A stretch of 43,983 nucleotides of DNA from an uncultured Oscillospiraceae bacterium (GTDB lineage Bacteria > Bacillota > Clostridia > Oscillospirales > Oscillospiraceae). Shown piece by piece: positions 1,703-9,552 of the stretch; position 1 is the stretch's first letter; each line of letters opens with the position of its first letter. The position numbers and the translations under genes were made by a program. The stretch covers positions 1 to 43,983 of the forward strand of contig CANPXW010000010.1 in assembly GCA_947587025.1 (NCBI GenBank). Direction: 5' to 3'. The notes beneath the pieces were generated by a model. The model saw only the letters and a program-made list of their open reading frames with translations, made no database searches and was not told the DNA's origin.

Positions 1703-1731
1703 TTGCAAGATTATGTTAAATCTGATAAAAT
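1703..1731 (+). promoter_or_regulatory. Sigma-A-type promoter for the M60 protease gene
   Basis: TTGCAA at 1703-1708, 17-base spacer, TAAAAT at 1726-1731, within a markedly AT-rich stretch (about 1640-1745) that contrasts with the GC-rich surroundings. The leader to the ATG at 1784 is about 45 bases and holds the ribosome site AGAGGTG. Confidence 0.65.
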
Positions 1732-1783: not shown

Positions 1784-4700
1784 ATGAAAAGAACGATCGC
1801 GTTGATGCTTGCCTTGATCATGATCTGCAGCATCACTCTGCCCGCGTTCGCGGATGGCGAGCCGGATGCGGACGCCACGCCGGAGCCGGAGGTCACCGCT
1901 ACGCCGGAGCCGGAGCCGGAGGCTACCGCCACACCGGAGCCGGAGGCCACCACTGTGCCGGAACCGGAAGCCACTGCCACGCCGGAACCGGAGGCCACCG
2001 TCGTGCCGGAACCGGAGGCCACTGCCACGCCGGAACCGGAGGCCACTGCCACGCCGGAGCCGGAAGCCACCGCCACGCCGGAGCCGGAGGCGACCGCTGC
2101 GCCGGAGCCGAGTCCCAGCGCCACGCCGGAGCCGGAGCTGCTGCTCGCGATGGCCGGCCTGGAGGACGTGTACGCGACGGTCGGCAGACTGGATCTCTCC
2201 ATCCACAAGGCGATGGACCCCGACGGCGTCACGCCCGCGTTCACTGTCACGCTGGCGCGGGACGGCGCGTCCGGGGAGCAGAAGAGCGTGCCCGCCGACG
2301 GCGGCACGTACAGCTTTTCCGTCGCTGAGGAGGCCGACTATGTGCTGAGCGTATGCGCGCCCGGCTTCGCGGCCTATACGCAGACCATACATATCTCTCT
2401 GGGCGAGTGCGCCCGTATCATGCTCCTGACCGGCAAAGTGGCCGGCTATGAGAGCAAGGCCCATCCCGGCGTGCTGCAGATCGGCGACGTGAACGGCGAC
2501 GGCGCGGTGAACGATGCGGATCGGGGGCCGATGATGCGCTCTGTGGCGGCGGGAGCCGCTGTAGACGGCTGCTGCGCCGATCTGAACATGGACGGCAGGG
2601 TGGACCTGGCCGACGCGGAATATCTGGCCCGAGGGCTGGACGTGGGCGGGATGGACGCCGACGCGCGTCTGGCCACCGTGGAGCGCTTCATCCCGGCGGA
2701 TATGATCAAGCCCGCTGTGTCGGAGAACACGGCCGTCACCGGCAATGTGGACGATCTGCTGCGGGACAACGGCCAGTCCGTCCAGTTCGGCACGGCCGAC
2801 GGCCAGCCCATCTCCCCGGAGGCGCCGGTACAGGTGTCCTTCGCCGTGCCCGACAAGGCCAAGACAGACGTCATCCTTCTGGAGGACACCAACATCGCCA
2901 ACGGCGAGATACTCATCACATATTTTGACGAGGCGCTGGGCATGGAGGTCGTGGCCAAGGGCGTCATCGGCCAGCCTGTGGTCTACGCGCCCGCTGCGGT
3001 GATCGCCGCGCCTGTCACCGCCGCCCAGACCGAGATGACTGTCCCGGCGGCGGAGCCGGAGCAGACCCAGGAGCCGCTGCCGGAGCCCGTTGCCGTAACG
3101 GAGACGGAGGAACCGGGGGCCGAGATCATCGCCGAGCCCATCGTGCCCGCCGCCATGTCCCCCTGGGTGCTGCGCCGCTCATCCGGCGCGACGATGCTGT
3201 CCGCGCCCATCGTCACCGGCACGGTGGAGGTGGTGCCGGACGGCGCCGGCAACTTCACGGTGAAGCTGGGCGGTCAGAAGGCCGTCAAGCGGGTCACGCT
3301 GACCATCACCTCTACATCGGACGAGCTCGACCTGGCGGAGATCTCGCAGGTGGAGTTCGTCAACGGCATGGAGAACCGCATCTCCGAGCCAGCGCTGGAC
3401 ATCCCCGTCATGAACGCGCCCGCCGGCGGCAGCCGTCAGTTCACCATCTCCTGGCAGCCCTGCCAGAACATCACCGGCTATGAGGTGCGCGTCAGCGACG
3501 GCGTGCACGCGCCGGAGACATACTCTCTGACCGGTACCAGCCTGACCGTGACGAACTTCAACAAGGACGAGGTGCTCAACTATACCACCTACACGGCCCA
3601 GGTGCGCTCCGTCAACGGCTCCTGGACGAGCCCTGACTGGTCCGCCGCCGTCTCCGTGACGCCTAAGCCCACGGGCGCGCCGGACAAGCCGGACAACGTA
3701 AAGGCGACCGGCGCTTATCAGAGCGTCGTGGTCTCCTGGAAGAACATGAAGGACACCACGTCCTATGACCTCTACTACAAGGCGGAGACCGAGGCCCAAT
3801 ACAGCAAGGTGCCCGATCTGACCGTGACCAGCTACACCATCGGCGGGCTGGACAGCTCCAAACCGACCAATTATATGGTCTACGTGATCGGCAAAAACGA
3901 GATAGGCCAGAGCGCCCCGTCCATGCTGGCCAGCGCCAGGACCGTCACCCTCGCGCCGCCTGAGATGAGCCGGTTCAATCTGATCAACCGCAGCGCCAGC
4001 GGCGTTCCCGGCCCATACCACATCGAATCCGCCGCGCAGAGCAGCGGTACGATGCTCTCCAGCTCCATGGACAGCGGCGCGGGCACCGCCTGGGGCACGG
4101 TGGACGGAGACCCCGCGTCCTACTACGACCGGCACACCTGGGACGACGGCGGCTACAACGGCAGCCTGGGCTCCCATCTCGGCCTGACCTACACCTTCGA
4201 CGGCGTATATAAGATCGACACCATCGGCATGATGAGCGCCGTGGACGCCGGCATGGACTATACCTACATCCAGCTGCGCTGGTGGGAAGGCGCCGGCACG
4301 GAGCATTTCATCGACCGCAGCCAGATGTATTCCGAAAAGCGCACCGACGCCGAAGGGCGGCACTACTTCTTCATCCGCCTGCCCGGTCCGGTAGAGGCGA
4401 AGAAGATACAGATCGGCACGGCACGCTACTGGGCGGGGAACAACCGCATCAACGTCTCCGAGGTGTACTTCTATAAGTACGACAGCCTCAAGCAGGAGCT
4501 CAATGCGTTGTACACGGACGATCTGCACATGACCCTGGCGGATACCGTCACCGAGCAGCTGCTGGACCAGCTGCAGGCGCGCATCGAGTCCTCTGTGGAC
4601 GAGTTCGGTGAGGTGAACCCGGACAAGGCGCAGCTTCTGCGGGAGCTGGATACCGCCCGGCAGATATACAACGACCAGTTCAAGGGCCGCGTCATCCAGA

Positions 4701-7378
4701 TACATACCGGCATCACCGCCAGCGGCGACGAGCACGGCTTTGGCGGACTGAACGCCTGGCAGCCGCTGGGCGTCACGGCGGCGGCCGGCGAGAGCGTCAC
4801 CGTCTACGTGGGCAGCCCCGGTAAAAAAACCGGCAGCGGCACCAATCTGCAGCTGGTGGCCACCCAGTACCACGCCGAGTCCAGCGCTATGAGCAAGGTG
4901 CTGCTCAACCTGAAGGTGGGCGCCAACGAGATCAAACTGCCCAAGATATGGACCACCACCGGCGTGGAGTCCGGCGGCGCGCTGTACGTGCAGTATACCG
5001 GCGGAGCCGGCTCTTCGGAGCAGTACGCCGTGCGCGTCAGCGGCGGCGTGGCCGTGCCCGTACTGGACCTTTACAAGGTGACGGACCCCGGCGAGCGCTC
5101 CGCCCGCACGGCGGACTATCTCAGCCAGCTCGGCGCCTACGCCGCCGGCATCCAGGCCAAGCACGCCGAGGTGCATCAGGGCGAGGGAGCCGTCAGCGTG
5201 GAGGTCAACTATGACTACAGCGAGCGCGACTGCATCCTGGGCGCCACCGACATCATGCTGGACACCATGATGCTGTCCATCCCGGCACAGCAGGTGCTGG
5301 CCGGCTGCGGCGGCGACGCGGTCAGGCTGCTGGCATCCCTCAACGCCATGGAGAACATGATGGCCCTGTTCTATCAGCACAAGGGCCTGAACGCGGCCGC
5401 GCCCGACGCCGTGGACCGCATCCCCAACCGGCACCTGAATATCCGCTACCAGCGGATGTTCTCCGGCGCGTTCATGTACGCCTCCGGCGACCACATCGGC
5501 ATCGAGTGGCCCGAGACGGCGGGCATTGCCGGCTGCGGCGGCGTGACCGCCGACGCCAACGGCCTGTACCAGAGCGGCAATTACTTCGGCTGGGGCATCG
5601 CCCATGAGATCGGCCACGACATCAACCAGGGCACCTACGCCATCGCGGAGGTCACCAACAACTACTTCGCCGTGCTGGCCCAGGCCCAGGACAGCAACGG
5701 CTCTGTCCGCTTCGAGTACCCGAAGGTATACGAGAAGGTGACCAGCGGCACGAAGGGCAGCGCCGGCAACGTATTCACCCAGCTGGCTATGTACTGGCAG
5801 CTGCACCTGGCCTACGATAAGGGCTATAACTTCAAGACCTACGCCGACTACGACCAGCAGCTGGCCAGCCTGTTCTGGGCCCGTGTGGACACCTATGCCC
5901 GCACGCCTTCCAAAGCGCCTGGAAAGCTGACGCTGGAGGGAGCGGATATGGACCAGCGGCTGATGCGGCTGTGCTGCGCGGCGGCTCAGAAGGACATCCT
6001 GGACTTCTTCGTGCGCTGGGGCAAGACCCCGGACGAGGGCACCGCCGCCTACGCCTCCCAGTTCGAGAAGGAGACGCGCGCCATCTGGTACGTGTGCGAC
6101 GACTCCCGCCGCTATACCATCGAGCACAGCGGACCCAGCCGCCTGAATGCCGACGGCTCCACCCAGGCCGTGGGGCAGATCACCGCTGCGGCGGACGCCG
6201 GCCAGACCAACCGGGTGGACATCTCCATCGCGCCCGGTGGCGTTGTCGCCCCGGAGGAGGTGCTGGGCTACGAGATCGTCCGCTGCACCATCGCCGGCGG
6301 CAAGGTGGAGCGCAGGACCGTGGGCTTCACCACGGACGGCTCCTTCACCGATGTGGTGACCGCCATGAACAACCGGGCGGTCTACTATGAGATCACCCTG
6401 GTGGACAAATATCTTGAGCGCTCCGCGCCCGCTGTCACCGGCACGGTGAAGATCCAGCACGAGGGCGATCTGGACAAGTCCGGCTGGACCGTCACCACCG
6501 ATGGACTGAAGGCGGATCCCATCCTGAGCGGCGGCACCAGCGCCGACGACCCGGAGCAGATCACCGAGGACGCCGCCGTGCTGCTGGCCGACAACAGGGC
6601 CGACACGGTCTACAGCGCTCTTGTGGAGAAGGACGGGGCCAGCATCCAGATAAGCTTCGGCCAGACCCAGGTCATCAGCGGCTTCCGCTACAGCGCCGGC
6701 GGCGCGGCCATCGGCGGCTATGTGATGGACGTGCGGCAGAACGGCCAGTGGCTCCGTGCCGCCGAGGGCACGCTGGGCAGCGACAAGACCGTCTACTTTG
6801 CCAACCCCGACGGAAAGTATGTGAGCACCTACAGCGCCGACGCCATGCGACTGACTCTGACCGGCCAGGCGGGACAGACGGTCTCGGCGGCGGAGCTGAC
6901 GGCGCTGGGGCTGACCGGCGACAACGTGGACTTCCGCTACGGCGGCGGCAGCGCTGTCATCGGCTACCTGAGCGAGGCGTATAAATACGGCGACGAGCCG
7001 GGCGACTATATCCCCAAGGGCTCGCTGGTGTTCACCGGGAGCTATAAGGGCAACGCGGCTTACAACACGGTGGTGCTCTATGACCAGAACGGCGGCATCG
7101 TGGCGGGCAGGGGCGCCGACGGCACGCAGCGGGCCTATCAGACCATCATGGCGGATCTGCCCGACACCGGCAGCATCCAGGACGTGGCCGACGGCTTCTG
7201 GGTCTACTGGATACAGCCGGAGGACCTGACGATGGACTTCGCGCTGCCGCAAAAGGTGCGCGTGGAGCTGTACCGCGTCAACGACGCTATGAACAACGAG
7301 GGCCATCGGCTGGTGAGCGACTCCATGTTCGTGGATATGCCGCAGCCCCTTGGCAGCATCACTCTCGGCAACGGCTGA
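1784..7378 (+). CDS. Secreted dockerin-bearing M60-like zinc metalloprotease (mucinase type)
   Basis: A 1864-residue exported protein. Domains in order: Sec signal peptide (1-24, ending PAFADG); Pro-Glu-Ala-Thr repeat linker (31-118); a beta-rich module of carboxypeptidase-regulatory type (about 125-220); a type I-like dockerin (about 230-286) with two calcium loops, D235-N237-D239-N243-D246 and D266-N268-D270-D274-D277; a second Pro/Glu-rich stretch; two fibronectin type III domains (about 540-626 and 633-720); a discoidin/CBM32-like domain (about 755-898); an M60-like peptidase (about 970-1430) with H1274-E-I-G-H1278 and E1289; and a further discoidin-like module (about 1570-1720). M60-like enzymes with CBM32 domains cleave O-glycosylated mucin-type proteins, so a host glycoprotein target is inferred. 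There is no wall-sorting signal of its own. The next gene, 23 bases on, encodes a cohesin-like surface anchor. Confidence 0.88.
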   Translation: MKRTIALMLALIMICSITLPAFADGEPDADATPEPEVTATPEPEPEATATPEPEATTVPEPEATATPEPEATVVPEPEATATPEPEATATPEPEATATPEPEATAAPEPSPSATPEPELLLAMAGLEDVYATVGRLDLSIHKAMDPDGVTPAFTVTLARDGASGEQKSVPADGGTYSFSVAEEADYVLSVCAPGFAAYTQTIHISLGECARIMLLTGKVAGYESKAHPGVLQIGDVNGDGAVNDADRGPMMRSVAAGAAVDGCCADLNMDGRVDLADAEYLARGLDVGGMDADARLATVERFIPADMIKPAVSENTAVTGNVDDLLRDNGQSVQFGTADGQPISPEAPVQVSFAVPDKAKTDVILLEDTNIANGEILITYFDEALGMEVVAKGVIGQPVVYAPAAVIAAPVTAAQTEMTVPAAEPEQTQEPLPEPVAVTETEEPGAEIIAEPIVPAAMSPWVLRRSSGATMLSAPIVTGTVEVVPDGAGNFTVKLGGQKAVKRVTLTITSTSDELDLAEISQVEFVNGMENRISEPALDIPVMNAPAGGSRQFTISWQPCQNITGYEVRVSDGVHAPETYSLTGTSLTVTNFNKDEVLNYTTYTAQVRSVNGSWTSPDWSAAVSVTPKPTGAPDKPDNVKATGAYQSVVVSWKNMKDTTSYDLYYKAETEAQYSKVPDLTVTSYTIGGLDSSKPTNYMVYVIGKNEIGQSAPSMLASARTVTLAPPEMSRFNLINRSASGVPGPYHIESAAQSSGTMLSSSMDSGAGTAWGTVDGDPASYYDRHTWDDGGYNGSLGSHLGLTYTFDGVYKIDTIGMMSAVDAGMDYTYIQLRWWEGAGTEHFIDRSQMYSEKRTDAEGRHYFFIRLPGPVEAKKIQIGTARYWAGNNRINVSEVYFYKYDSLKQELNALYTDDLHMTLADTVTEQLLDQLQARIESSVDEFGEVNPDKAQLLRELDTARQIYNDQFKGRVIQIHTGITASGDEHGFGGLNAWQPLGVTAAAGESVTVYVGSPGKKTGSGTNLQLVATQYHAESSAMSKVLLNLKVGANEIKLPKIWTTTGVESGGALYVQYTGGAGSSEQYAVRVSGGVAVPVLDLYKVTDPGERSARTADYLSQLGAYAAGIQAKHAEVHQGEGAVSVEVNYDYSERDCILGATDIMLDTMMLSIPAQQVLAGCGGDAVRLLASLNAMENMMALFYQHKGLNAAAPDAVDRIPNRHLNIRYQRMFSGAFMYASGDHIGIEWPETAGIAGCGGVTADANGLYQSGNYFGWGIAHEIGHDINQGTYAIAEVTNNYFAVLAQAQDSNGSVRFEYPKVYEKVTSGTKGSAGNVFTQLAMYWQLHLAYDKGYNFKTYADYDQQLASLFWARVDTYARTPSKAPGKLTLEGADMDQRLMRLCCAAAQKDILDFFVRWGKTPDEGTAAYASQFEKETRAIWYVCDDSRRYTIEHSGPSRLNADGSTQAVGQITAAADAGQTNRVDISIAPGGVVAPEEVLGYEIVRCTIAGGKVERRTVGFTTDGSFTDVVTAMNNRAVYYEITLVDKYLERSAPAVTGTVKIQHEGDLDKSGWTVTTDGLKADPILSGGTSADDPEQITEDAAVLLADNRADTVYSALVEKDGASIQISFGQTQVISGFRYSAGGAAIGGYVMDVRQNGQWLRAAEGTLGSDKTVYFANPDGKYVSTYSADAMRLTLTGQAGQTVSAAELTALGLTGDNVDFRYGGGSAVIGYLSEAYKYGDEPGDYIPKGSLVFTGSYKGNAAYNTVVLYDQNGGIVAGRGADGTQRAYQTIMADLPDTGSIQDVADGFWVYWIQPEDLTMDFALPQKVRVELYRVNDAMNNEGHRLVSDSMFVDMPQPLGSITLGNG
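1874..2137 (+). repeat. In-frame 24-base tandem repeat encoding T-A-T-P-E-P-E-A units
   Basis: About eleven PEPE-containing units, most of them the octapeptide T-[A/T/V]-[T/A/V]-P-E-P-E-A, encoded by a 24-base unit such as GCCACTGCCACGCCGGAACC plus four bases. It codes for the flexible linker (residues 31-118) of the M60 protein. Unit number could vary by slippage. Confidence 0.9.
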
Positions 7379-7401
7379 GCCGGCCAGGGAAGGAGCAGAA
7401 C

Positions 7402-8538
7402 ATGACCAAGACTTTTTTCAAAACGCTCTGGACGATCGCGGTCCTGCTGTCGCTGCTGTTGCTGCTGACGCCCCCGGCGCTGGCCGCCGGCGTGGACGCG
7501 GGCACGGACGCCATCGAGGTCTCCCCGGACGGGACCGTCACCCTTCTCTCCGGCCACATCGCCGGAGAGGGGGTGTCCTCGGTGCAGTTCCAGCTGCGCA
7601 CGGAGGGGGACGTGCAGTTCTCCTTCGCCGGCGATATAGCCGGGGGTTATCTGACCAACTGCGTCGCCGGCGACGGGACCCTGGACGTGTATATCGCCGG
7701 CACGGCCCCGCTGATGCAGCCGGGATACACCAGCCGCGTTTTGGGCACTGTCAGTCCGGCGGACAAGGCGCAGCCCGTGCAGTCCTCTCTGCGCTACGTA
7801 TACGGCGTCAACACGGTCGCCCAGAACGTGAGCCTGGGCCCCGAGGCGGAGAGCGGCGAGCCCAAGGCACAGCTGCAGAGCGTGCTGGACGCCGCCAACG
7901 CGATGTTCTCCGCTGAGAACAAGTATTCCGAGGAGAGCTGGGCAAAGCTCAACGCCGCCATCGACGAGATAGTAAGGCTTCTGGAGAGCGATGCCGTGAC
8001 CCAGGAGCAGGTGAACGACGCCATCAAGGCGTACAATCAGGCGTGCATCGACCTGGTGATCGTCGGCTCGGACGATCTGGGCGCGGTGCTGGAGTCCGCC
8101 AGAGCCATCGACGCGTCCCTGTACACGCCGAACAGCTACAGCGTTCTTGCCGACGCGATAAGCGCGGCGGAGACTGTCCTGGCGAAGGGCGACGGCGCCG
8201 GGCCCGAAGAGGTAGAGCAGGCGATAAGCGCGCTGCGCGCGGCCATGGAGGGGCTGGTGTCCCAGCAAAGCGCCGACGGCAGCGGCGGCGTCATCGGAGA
8301 CGGCGCCGATAACGGCACGATGCTGCGCTCCGCGCCCGCCCCCGAGCAGGGCGGCGGGACAGGCGACGGCGGTGATGGCTCCGGCAGCGGCAGCTCCGGT
8401 ACCCAGGCGACCACATCTGCGGGCTCCGTCATCCCCGCCACCGGCGACGAGACGGACTTGGCGCCCTGGCTGGCGGTGATGTGCCTGTGCGGCGGACTGC
8501 TGGCGGTGCTGCTGCGCCGCGTCAGAACGCAGGGATGA
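7402..8538 (+). CDS. Cell-wall-anchored cohesin-like/FIVAR surface protein (putative scaffoldin anchor)
   Basis: A 378-residue protein with signal peptide (1-29, ending ALAAG) and a beta-strand domain at about 36-140 with cohesin-like features: GEGVSSVQFQLRTEGDVQF, then LDVYIAGTAPL and VLGTVSPAD. Two helical FIVAR-type modules follow (about 157-219 and 226-286), then a Gly/Ser-rich spacer and a sorting signal. The signal is I344-P-A-T-G348, then a hydrophobic segment and a basic tail (RRVRTQG), as expected for sortase attachment. Cohesins bind dockerins, and the gene just upstream encodes a dockerin protease, so the inferred job is to hold that enzyme on the wall. The ATG at 7402 follows AAGGAG. 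FIVAR plus cohesin/dockerin modules also occur in Clostridium perfringens secreted glycosidases. The cohesin call is by pattern, not by search; another beta-sandwich adhesin fold is the main alternative. Confidence 0.7.
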   Translation: MTKTFFKTLWTIAVLLSLLLLLTPPALAAGVDAGTDAIEVSPDGTVTLLSGHIAGEGVSSVQFQLRTEGDVQFSFAGDIAGGYLTNCVAGDGTLDVYIAGTAPLMQPGYTSRVLGTVSPADKAQPVQSSLRYVYGVNTVAQNVSLGPEAESGEPKAQLQSVLDAANAMFSAENKYSEESWAKLNAAIDEIVRLLESDAVTQEQVNDAIKAYNQACIDLVIVGSDDLGAVLESARAIDASLYTPNSYSVLADAISAAETVLAKGDGAGPEEVEQAISALRAAMEGLVSQQSADGSGGVIGDGADNGTMLRSAPAPEQGGGTGDGGDGSGSGSSGTQATTSAGSVIPATGDETDLAPWLAVMCLCGGLLAVLLRRVRTQG

Positions 8539-8552
8539 GAGGATAAGAAAAT

Positions 8553-8581
8553 CGGCCCCGGAGCGCAACGCTCCGGGGCCG
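8553..8581. terminator. Bidirectional terminator between convergent genes
   Basis: A perfect 13-bp stem, CGGCCCCGGAGCG/CGCTCCGGGGCCG, with loop CAA lies between the cohesin-like gene (+) and the exonuclease gene (-). T-rich bases follow on both strands, though neither T run is long. Confidence 0.75.
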
Positions 8582-8595
8582 TGTCTTTATATAGT

Positions 8596-9552
8596 TTATG
8601 ACTGCTTCGCGCCTCTGCGGCGGCGACGGCGGGGGTGGCTCTGCCGCTCGCGGAAGCTGGCGACCATCTCCTCGTCCGCCCGGTACAGCAGCCGGTTGGC
8701 GGTCCAGGTACCGTCCGGGTCGCTGCGCAGCCGGACACGGCAGAGGAACGCGCCGTGCTCGGCGCACTCGGCCAGGGACATATACCGCCGGTCGCCCTGG
8801 CTGACCCAGCGGGTGCGCTCCAAGGGCCTGCGGCAGTCGGGGCACACGGCCTGAGACTGCTCCACCGCCTGCCAGAGCTCCTCCCGCGTGGCGTAGGCGG
8901 GGGAGACGTTGTGTTCGATGGGCGCGGGGCCGCTGCCGCCGGCCTCGGGCACATGGCGGGAGAGCTGCCGGACGAGCGAGTCATAATTGTCCAGCCCTCG
9001 GCGCAGATCCAGCCGGGAGCAGACCAGCGCGGTGTTGTAGGCGTCGCCCAGCGCGTCGTGCGCCACACGCGTCTGCTCGATGCCGAAGTGCTCCATGGCG
9101 GTCTCCAGGGACTTCTGGTTACGGTCCGGGTCCTCGGTGAGCATGTTGTATATGAGCTGCAGATTCACCCACTGGCCCATCCAGTCGATGTCCAGGTCGT
9201 GGATGATGCAGTTCTGCTCCATGATGCCGCTGTCGTCATAGCCCCAGGTCATGAAGGTGCAGTCCGGCCCGCACCAGTCCAGGAACTGCTCCAGAGCCTT
9301 TTTGAAGGGCAGGCCGTGGGCCAGCCTCTCGTTATCGAAGCCGGTGAGCTTTTTCACCTTGTAGTGCATCTTGCGGAACCACACGGGGCTGACGTCGCAC
9401 TGAAATTCCTCGCCGGGTGTCAGATCATCGTTCAGCTTCACGGCGCCGATCTGGATGATCTCGCCCCGCAGATGGATGGGAAGATGGTTGAATACGGAAG
9501 ATCTCGCGCTCATGGCCTGGTTCCACTCCAGGTCGATGATAATGTATGGCAT
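8596..9552 (-). CDS. DEDDh 3'-5' exonuclease with C-terminal zinc-ribbon-like tail
   Basis: A 318-residue protein whose N-terminal half is a DnaQ/KapD-type exonuclease. Metal ligands visible are D7 and E9 in IIDLEWNQ, the Asp in TWGYDDSG (D106/D107), and H165 with D170 in HDALGD, which makes it DEDDh. Such enzymes remove nucleotides from DNA or RNA 3' ends; the substrate here is unknown. KapD of Bacillus, which inhibits sporulation entry, is a related architecture. Unusually, residues 237-271 hold C237-x2-C240, C263, H266 and C271, which could bind zinc, and the C-terminus is very basic (RRRRRRGAKQS). The ATG at 9552 has AGGAAGG upstream. The gene is divergent from ddl, with its own promoter candidate in the shared spacer. 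Confidence 0.85.
   Translation of the reverse strand: MPYIIIDLEWNQAMSARSSVFNHLPIHLRGEIIQIGAVKLNDDLTPGEEFQCDVSPVWFRKMHYKVKKLTGFDNERLAHGLPFKKALEQFLDWCGPDCTFMTWGYDDSGIMEQNCIIHDLDIDWMGQWVNLQLIYNMLTEDPDRNQKSLETAMEHFGIEQTRVAHDALGDAYNTALVCSRLDLRRGLDNYDSLVRQLSRHVPEAGGSGPAPIEHNVSPAYATREELWQAVEQSQAVCPDCRRPLERTRWVSQGDRRYMSLAECAEHGAFLCRVRLRSDPDGTWTANRLLYRADEEMVASFRERQSHPRRRRRRGAKQS

Follow-up and report, generated by a model that had tools for sequence, protein, structure and literature searches.

A candidate private joint between an M60-family peptidase and its adjacent cell-wall anchor protein in gut Clostridia

The stretch of DNA analyzed here (the window) is the whole 43,983-nucleotide contig CANPXW010000010.1 of an uncultured Oscillospiraceae bacterium, part of a 2.32 Mb metagenome-assembled genome (MAG) of 154 contigs that is 80% complete. 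Near its start lie two genes in the same direction (+ strand), with a 23-base gap: gene A (1784..7378), assigned from Pfam and orthologues to a secreted M60-family peptidase of 1864 amino acids, and gene B (7402..8538), assigned from Pfam, sequence and neighbour conservation to a secreted cell-wall anchor protein of 378 amino acids. We consider it likely that the two form one unit and a dedicated pair, in which wall-anchored B holds the peptidase at the surface through a joint between its N-terminal domain (N-domain) and the X-module plus dockerin (X-dockerin, XDoc) of A. A sequence-only reading had placed the same two genes 23 bases apart, at coordinates that we confirmed, and had proposed that the anchor captures the protease; predicted folds, strict co-occurrence, adjacency, fusion and distance correlation all speak for this putative binding. 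The part of that interpretation that lacks support is an anchor shared with other dockerins.

Co-occurrence, fusion and retention of the pair

The pair was hardly ever found separated. Among 35 genomes of the genus, the window's own counted in, 22 (again including its own) carry a full-length gene A orthologue; a wider tally of 28 comprises these 22 and six genomes in which the match is confined to the repeat linker or the dockerin. In all 22, the gene 3' of the orthologue is a gene B homologue, at a gap of -4 to 26 bases or, in three, with a first start that overlaps; these homologues are 34-46% identical to gene B, and the genes beyond differ. The N-domain was found in exactly those 22 genomes, one copy each, and in none of the 13 others, and the full-length XDoc at the same 22 places only, 12 more matches covering little beyond the dockerin half. 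In some genomes only about the best 10-15 candidates were scored, both in the gene A search and in the family-level searches with the N-domain and with gene B described below.

The same arrangement prevails among the best 80 of 537 relatives from a contig scan (loci labelled L below), which include rabbit-gut Oscillospiraceae MAGs, Lachnospiraceae, Ruminococcus, Dorea sp. 5-2 and Acetatifactor muris DSM 23669. Of the 80 M60 proteins, 79 match the profile of the dockerin, the exception, L157, starting at a contig end. An N-domain lies downstream at 69 loci (median gap 20 bases, range -59 to 265, 62 of the 69 within 60 bases) and is fused to the M60 C-terminus at four (L147, L152, L153 and L182). 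With loci at a contig end (L150, L175) or with a cut gene (L173, L189) set aside as unjudgeable, the N-domain is thus adjacent or fused in 73 of 76. Since the pair is conserved across several groups of gut Clostridia, a chance association is excluded.

The reverse search, with the N-domain alone, matched 30 of 397 genomes (labelled G) from the A. muris family at E≤0.001, at 31 places, of which four were already known (G571, G575, G579, G587) and 27 more were fetched, at least four of these 27 being, to judge by length, on contigs in the earlier set. Together with two extra copies in G583, the fetched places gave 29 N-domains, all 29 beside or inside an M60 protein; catalytic and XDoc profiles were both found in 27 of them, while at L235, a fused case, the N-terminal part lies past the contig end and at L245 only the M60 C-terminus precedes the contig end. 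One N-domain copy was present in 17 of the 18 named genomes searched and three in the remaining one; G583 carries three M60/N-domain pairs (L228, L229, L165). A class-wide N-domain search matched 1 of 391 genomes, the window's own only, which makes the domain a rarity among the genomes drawn. A family-level search with the whole of gene B matched 15 of 150 genomes, own included, mostly through FIVAR modules and sorting signals, and is not used as evidence.

The way in which the downstream proteins would be retained differs among loci. A crude script divided the 69 into 28 with a sortase-like end (L139 and L184 on doubtful motifs), 28 with a membrane helix and tail, 7 that lack a C-terminal helix and 6 that are cut; N-domain proteins without a C-terminal membrane segment occur downstream at L142, L174, L180, L159, L181 and L191. 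The number of FIVAR modules in the genus anchors, counted by eye, ranges from none to two. At the Ruminococcus locus L157, the anchor (4218-4877) ends in a dockerin (28.5 bits) in place of a sorting signal, through which the M60 protease could become part of a cellulosome. In the four fused proteins, the XDoc and its putative partner lie within one chain, and a second dockerin-like stretch follows the N-domain (two stretches were recognised by Pfam in L153 and L182). The retention device thus varies and the N-domain/XDoc joint is constant, the pattern expected of a surface receptor for the protease.

Predicted folds and residual correlation at the proposed joint

On the enzyme's side, the dockerin of gene A (residues about 229-290; 2468..2653, +), delimited by Pfam, conservation and predicted fold, contains the two calcium-loop repeats that characterize the family (PF00404), D235-D246 and D266-D277, and scores 23.0 bits with Dockerin_1 against a cut-off of 22.9 (residues 234-283). 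D235, D246 and D277 are invariant in the 22 genus orthologues and D266 is conserved at 90% or more. Over 80 aligned rows, the first-loop ligands are retained in 79 (D235), 75 (N/D237), 72 (D239) and 80 (D246) and those of the second loop in 79 (D266), 79 (N268), 78 (D270) and 80 (D277). With Dockerin_1 at E≤0.001, the module is detected in 20 of 22 M60 genes in the genus. The dockerin is preceded by a CarboxypepD_reg-like beta domain (residues about 134-218, boundary approximate; 2183..2437, +), which has an X-module fold in the predicted structure. At E≤0.01, the profile of this module was found in 66 of 69 rows and that of the dockerin in 58 of 69; the underlying alignment (A5) holds 68 of 78 distinct rows and the window, L189 and L169 being among those omitted. 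The XDoc was modelled with a predicted local distance difference test (pLDDT) score of 92.5, and ranks 1-8 of its VIA-align search are chains of type II cohesin-XDoc complexes or multimodular pieces of CipA, including chains of 3kcp and 4fl4, which we take to contain X-dockerins. The earlier description as a textbook two-loop dockerin is therefore right about both loops but too simple, the module being internal and forming an X-dockerin dyad with the conserved beta-module before it.

The anchor's side is identified by predicted fold and conservation. The N-domain (residues 29-152; 7486..7857, +) is predicted to be a compact, nine-strand beta-sandwich of the cohesin type, and in VIA-align cohesins rank first for its model, with a best Z just above the 'middling' range; it is this result that carries the assignment to a cohesin-type fold. 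The earlier label of a cohesin-like domain thus agrees with the predicted fold but has no counterpart at the level of sequence, where proof was sought with Pfam, PDB profile, phmmer and hhalign searches and abandoned after all four were negative.

Several results weigh against a cohesin-type joint. Pfam does not recognise Cohesin (PF00963) in gene B, and Cohesin is absent among the 25 families listed of the 35 that Pfam matched at E≤1 for 62 N-domains, where no family listed matched more than three members and the 10 others cannot exceed one member each. A PDB profile search with the N-domains gave no cohesin match, phmmer likewise gave no cohesin support, and hhalign against eight cohesin-looking domains from other proteins of the genus returned a probability of 4.7%. 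Raw Foldseek hits to the N-domain model are weak, with none at E≤1e-3 and with YcnI, a cohesin-like module and antibody domains near E 0.02. At E≤0.001, Dockerin_1 leaves 2 of 22 M60 genes in the genus undetected, 7 of the 69 downstream proteins have no C-terminal membrane segment, and three Ruminococcus loci (L170, L172, L193) keep the dockerin without an adjacent N-domain. According to the names of the records, the MAGs of L172 and L193 also contain L169 and L161, both of which have the N-domain. The N-domain alignment (A3) comprised 61 of the 68 distinct named N-domains and the window; short or divergent ones were omitted (L159, L163, L176, L177, L179, L181, L198), and the L192 N-domain is identical to that of L190.

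To compare the two sides of the joint, we correlated N-domain distances with those of enzyme regions over 67 pairs (L181 and L157 excluded) after regressing out the distances of residues 540-1864. The correlation was 0.403 with the dockerin, a value reached in 0 of 999 permutations, and 0.227 with the X-module region (1 of 999). In control regions it was 0.064 (FN3), 0.101 (residues 1251-1450) and 0.034 (C-terminus), and two regions were negative; the controls belong to the regressed-out part, which favours low values, whereas the dockerin and X-module do not. Type II cohesins touch the X-module as well as the dockerin. Shared ancestry is reduced by the regression, not removed.

These data bear on two rival explanations. 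In the first, the N-domain is a substrate- or glycan-binding sandwich, similar to an adhesin or a carbohydrate-binding module (CBM), beside a freely secreted protease, and the XDoc binds another cohesin or nothing. The non-cohesin sandwiches among the first Foldseek hits (YcnI, an endoglucanase carbohydrate-binding domain) and the lack of cohesin-like sequence in Pfam, PDB profile and hhalign comparisons would fit such a domain, and functional linkage alone would also produce adjacency and fusion. We nevertheless regard this explanation as unlikely: the residual correlation involves the dockerin and X-module and not the catalytic or C-terminal regions, cohesins come first in VIA-align, and another anchor of the same genome (on contig C36, see below) also follows a dockerin. 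Moreover, Pfam Cohesin is absent at E≤1 from the genome, at 80% completeness, which would leave the XDoc without a recognised partner. In the second, the XDoc is merely a calcium-stabilised structural module and the two proteins lie side by side without contact. Dockerin-like calcium modules do occur outside cellulosomes, but the strong conservation of the loop ligands over 80 sequences, the residual correlation with the N-domain and the four M60-XDoc/N-domain fusions make this scarcely credible.

A probable private pair among known cohesin-dockerin systems

According to the sequence-only reading, other dockerin enzymes would plug into the same anchor. The genome has one other recognised dockerin, on another contig, and it has its own anchor. 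This second pair is independent and has the same layout: on contig C36, a dockerin gene (L033:4485-6764) is followed after 24 bases by an anchor gene (6789-9254), encoding a VPATG-anchored protein of 821 amino acids whose N-terminal domain resembles a cohesin on visual inspection but is not recognised as one by Pfam or PDB phmmer. Across the genus, Dockerin_1 has 18 places outside the M60 gene. At 8 of them, a secreted protein with a cohesin-looking N-terminal domain is encoded within 60 bases downstream, 7 of the 8 with a sorting signal; the other 10 do not show that order. Pfam Cohesin is matched at E≤0.01 by five of these eight domains (one below the cut-off) but not by the remaining three, that on C36 included, and a profile of all eight matches PDB cohesins (1aoh, E 1e-7). 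Genus-wide, Pfam Cohesin has 9 matches, of which these five lie directly downstream of a dockerin. The N-domain of gene B occupies a slot filled elsewhere in the genus by recognisable cohesins. The genome also encodes, at L034:5880-8387 (-), a secreted VPATG-anchored protein of 835 amino acids, with no Dockerin_1 match on its contig.

Because the full-length XDoc and the N-domain occur once per genome and only at this locus, and the second dockerin has its own anchor, the data favour a private pair over a shared scaffold; a single N-domain with a single full-length XDoc, as present in 22 of the 35 genus genomes, does not make a cellulosome-type multi-enzyme complex. That the anchor is instead a docking point for several dockerin proteins, in a small mucinolysome-like complex, seems to us quite improbable. 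The genome does contain a second dockerin protein, further ones could be missing from an 80% complete MAG, and an LPxTG anchor with an N-terminal cohesin in Limousia is predicted in PMC12997984 to take many dockerins. Against this, the second dockerin comes with an anchor gene of its own just downstream, and in the genus the full-length XDoc and the N-domain are found once each and together.

From the computed architecture, predicted folds, linkage, co-occurrence, fusions and distance correlation, we infer binding, its calcium dependence, surface display and substrate as follows. Proteins A and B would both be exported, and a sortase would link B to the cell wall through its IPATG motif, as suggested by the motif and the sortases of the genome. 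The compact cohesin-type N-domain would bind the X-dockerin dyad, probably with calcium-loaded loops, and so hold the peptidase, spaced by the FIVAR modules, at the cell surface, where its zinc site may cut O-glycosylated proteins such as mucins. One anchor would serve one enzyme, not a many-enzyme scaffold. An evenly balanced proposition is that the N-domain is the founding member of a new, compact type of cohesin, orthogonal to Pfam-recognisable cohesins and to the cohesin-looking anchors of the genus and accepting the M60 X-dockerin only, with the retention part swapped among wall signal, membrane helix and second dockerin (L157); the fused chains could form closed rings or head-to-tail strings of enzymes.

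Cohesin-dockerin capture at the surface is already known as a kind, including a mucin-targeted case in Limousia (PMC12997984). That mucinolysome is similar in its host group, gut Clostridia, its dockerin peptidases and its LPxTG anchor (cSca5) with an N-terminal cohesin. It comprises 3-6 scaffoldins and up to 22 dockerin carbohydrate-active enzymes (CAZymes) per genome, in contrast to one anchor and one enzyme here, and the cohesin-like domain described here is unrecognised by Pfam; the main text of that paper (2026) does not name M60. In the C. perfringens cohesin/FIVAR-dockerin glycan-degrading enzymes, the five proteins with a cohesin have a glycoside hydrolase domain as well (PMC12997984), whereas the present anchor has no recognised catalytic domain and bears the FIVAR modules itself. 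Also among the closest known systems are the type II cohesin/X-dockerin pairs of cellulosomes (C. thermocellum CipA, A. cellulolyticus ScaA). Solved M60-domain peptidases share the M60 domain and HExxH...E site with gene A, which differs by its N-terminal XDoc and adjacent anchor gene. Dockerin type 1 is listed with counts of 2 among M60-like proteins in Nakjang 2012 (PMC3267712). No account of this pair was found among the titles and abstract openings listed by searches of the open literature, a scope that most subscription papers fall outside. What differs here is the one-enzyme private pair, the XDoc inside the enzyme, the Pfam-unrecognised anchor domain and the exchangeable retention. If the proposed joint is real, gut Clostridia that are not among the classic builders of cellulosomes use a pared-down, one-enzyme cohesin-dockerin joint to retain a probable glycoprotein-cutting protease, profile searches undercount such mucin-degrading systems by missing a cohesin-like family, and a naturally private coupling pair is on offer. 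Relatives in named strains (Acetatifactor muris DSM 23669, Dorea sp. 5-2) make the pair directly testable.

Modules of the two proteins and transcription

After a signal peptide (by eye), a repeat linker, the X-module and the dockerin, gene A encodes fn3, M60 and weakly matching F5/8 type C modules. The fn3 module (residues 634-713; 3683..3922, +) is the better of two stretches matched by Pfam (41.1 bits). The Pfam-matched part of the Peptidase_M60 domain (PF13402; residues 1259-1413; 5558..6022, +) scores 43.4 bits against a cut-off of 25.8 and contains the HEIGH...E zinc site (H1274, E1275, H1278, E1289; 5603..5650, +), all four residues being invariant in the 22 genus orthologues. The FN3 modules and zinc site of the sequence-only reading are thus borne out, whereas its 'CBM32-like' label has as its basis an F5_F8_type_C match (residues 1600-1676; 6581..6811, +) at E 0.043, below the Pfam cut-off. 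PDB relatives of the M60 domain include ZmpC (6xsz), the O-glycopeptidases BcM60C (9pl8) and BcM60K (9pl7), and 5kdj and 7jfs, M60 proteins whose entries bear the title F5/8 type C domain protein. As several M60 relatives in the PDB are named glycopeptidases, glycoprotein substrates are likely for gene A; mucin as the target is plausible from the M60 family, though a guess.

In gene B, the signal peptide (by eye) and N-domain are followed by a FIVAR module (residues 155-214; 7864..8043, +), a second, approximate one (residues about 222-290; 8065..8271, +), placed from Pfam (49.3 bits, two stretches) and homologues, and a cell-wall sorting signal with IPATG, a hydrophobic stretch and an RRVRTQG tail, basic by eye (8431..8535, +). 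The genome encodes two sortases, completing the features of a sortase-anchored surface protein, and both the FIVAR modules and the sorting signal had been correctly read before. An xPxTG motif lies near the C-terminus in 21 of the 22 genus anchors, L086 having VPHTA.

Genes A and B probably form one transcription unit, because they share direction with a 23-base gap, a promoter-like site lies upstream, a terminator-like stem follows B, and the same scan reported no such stem between them. The promoter-like site, a consensus match only, is TTGCAA-17-TAAAAT with TG before the -10 (1703..1731, +), 52 bases upstream of gene A; the stem is strong, with 13 pairs (8553..8581, +). In the gap, AGGGAAGGAG (7386..7395, +), read by eye, probably serves gene B as its ribosome-binding site. 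Long antisense frames (such as 3179-7306, 1375 amino acids), the frame 7350-7916 overlapping gene B and small overlapping frames at related loci were dismissed as by-products of high GC content. The linker after the signal peptide of gene A (1859..2137, +) is rich in Pro, Thr and Glu and contains 11.4 copies of a 24-base tandem repeat; it matches many other frames in the genus and inflates protein matches in genome searches.
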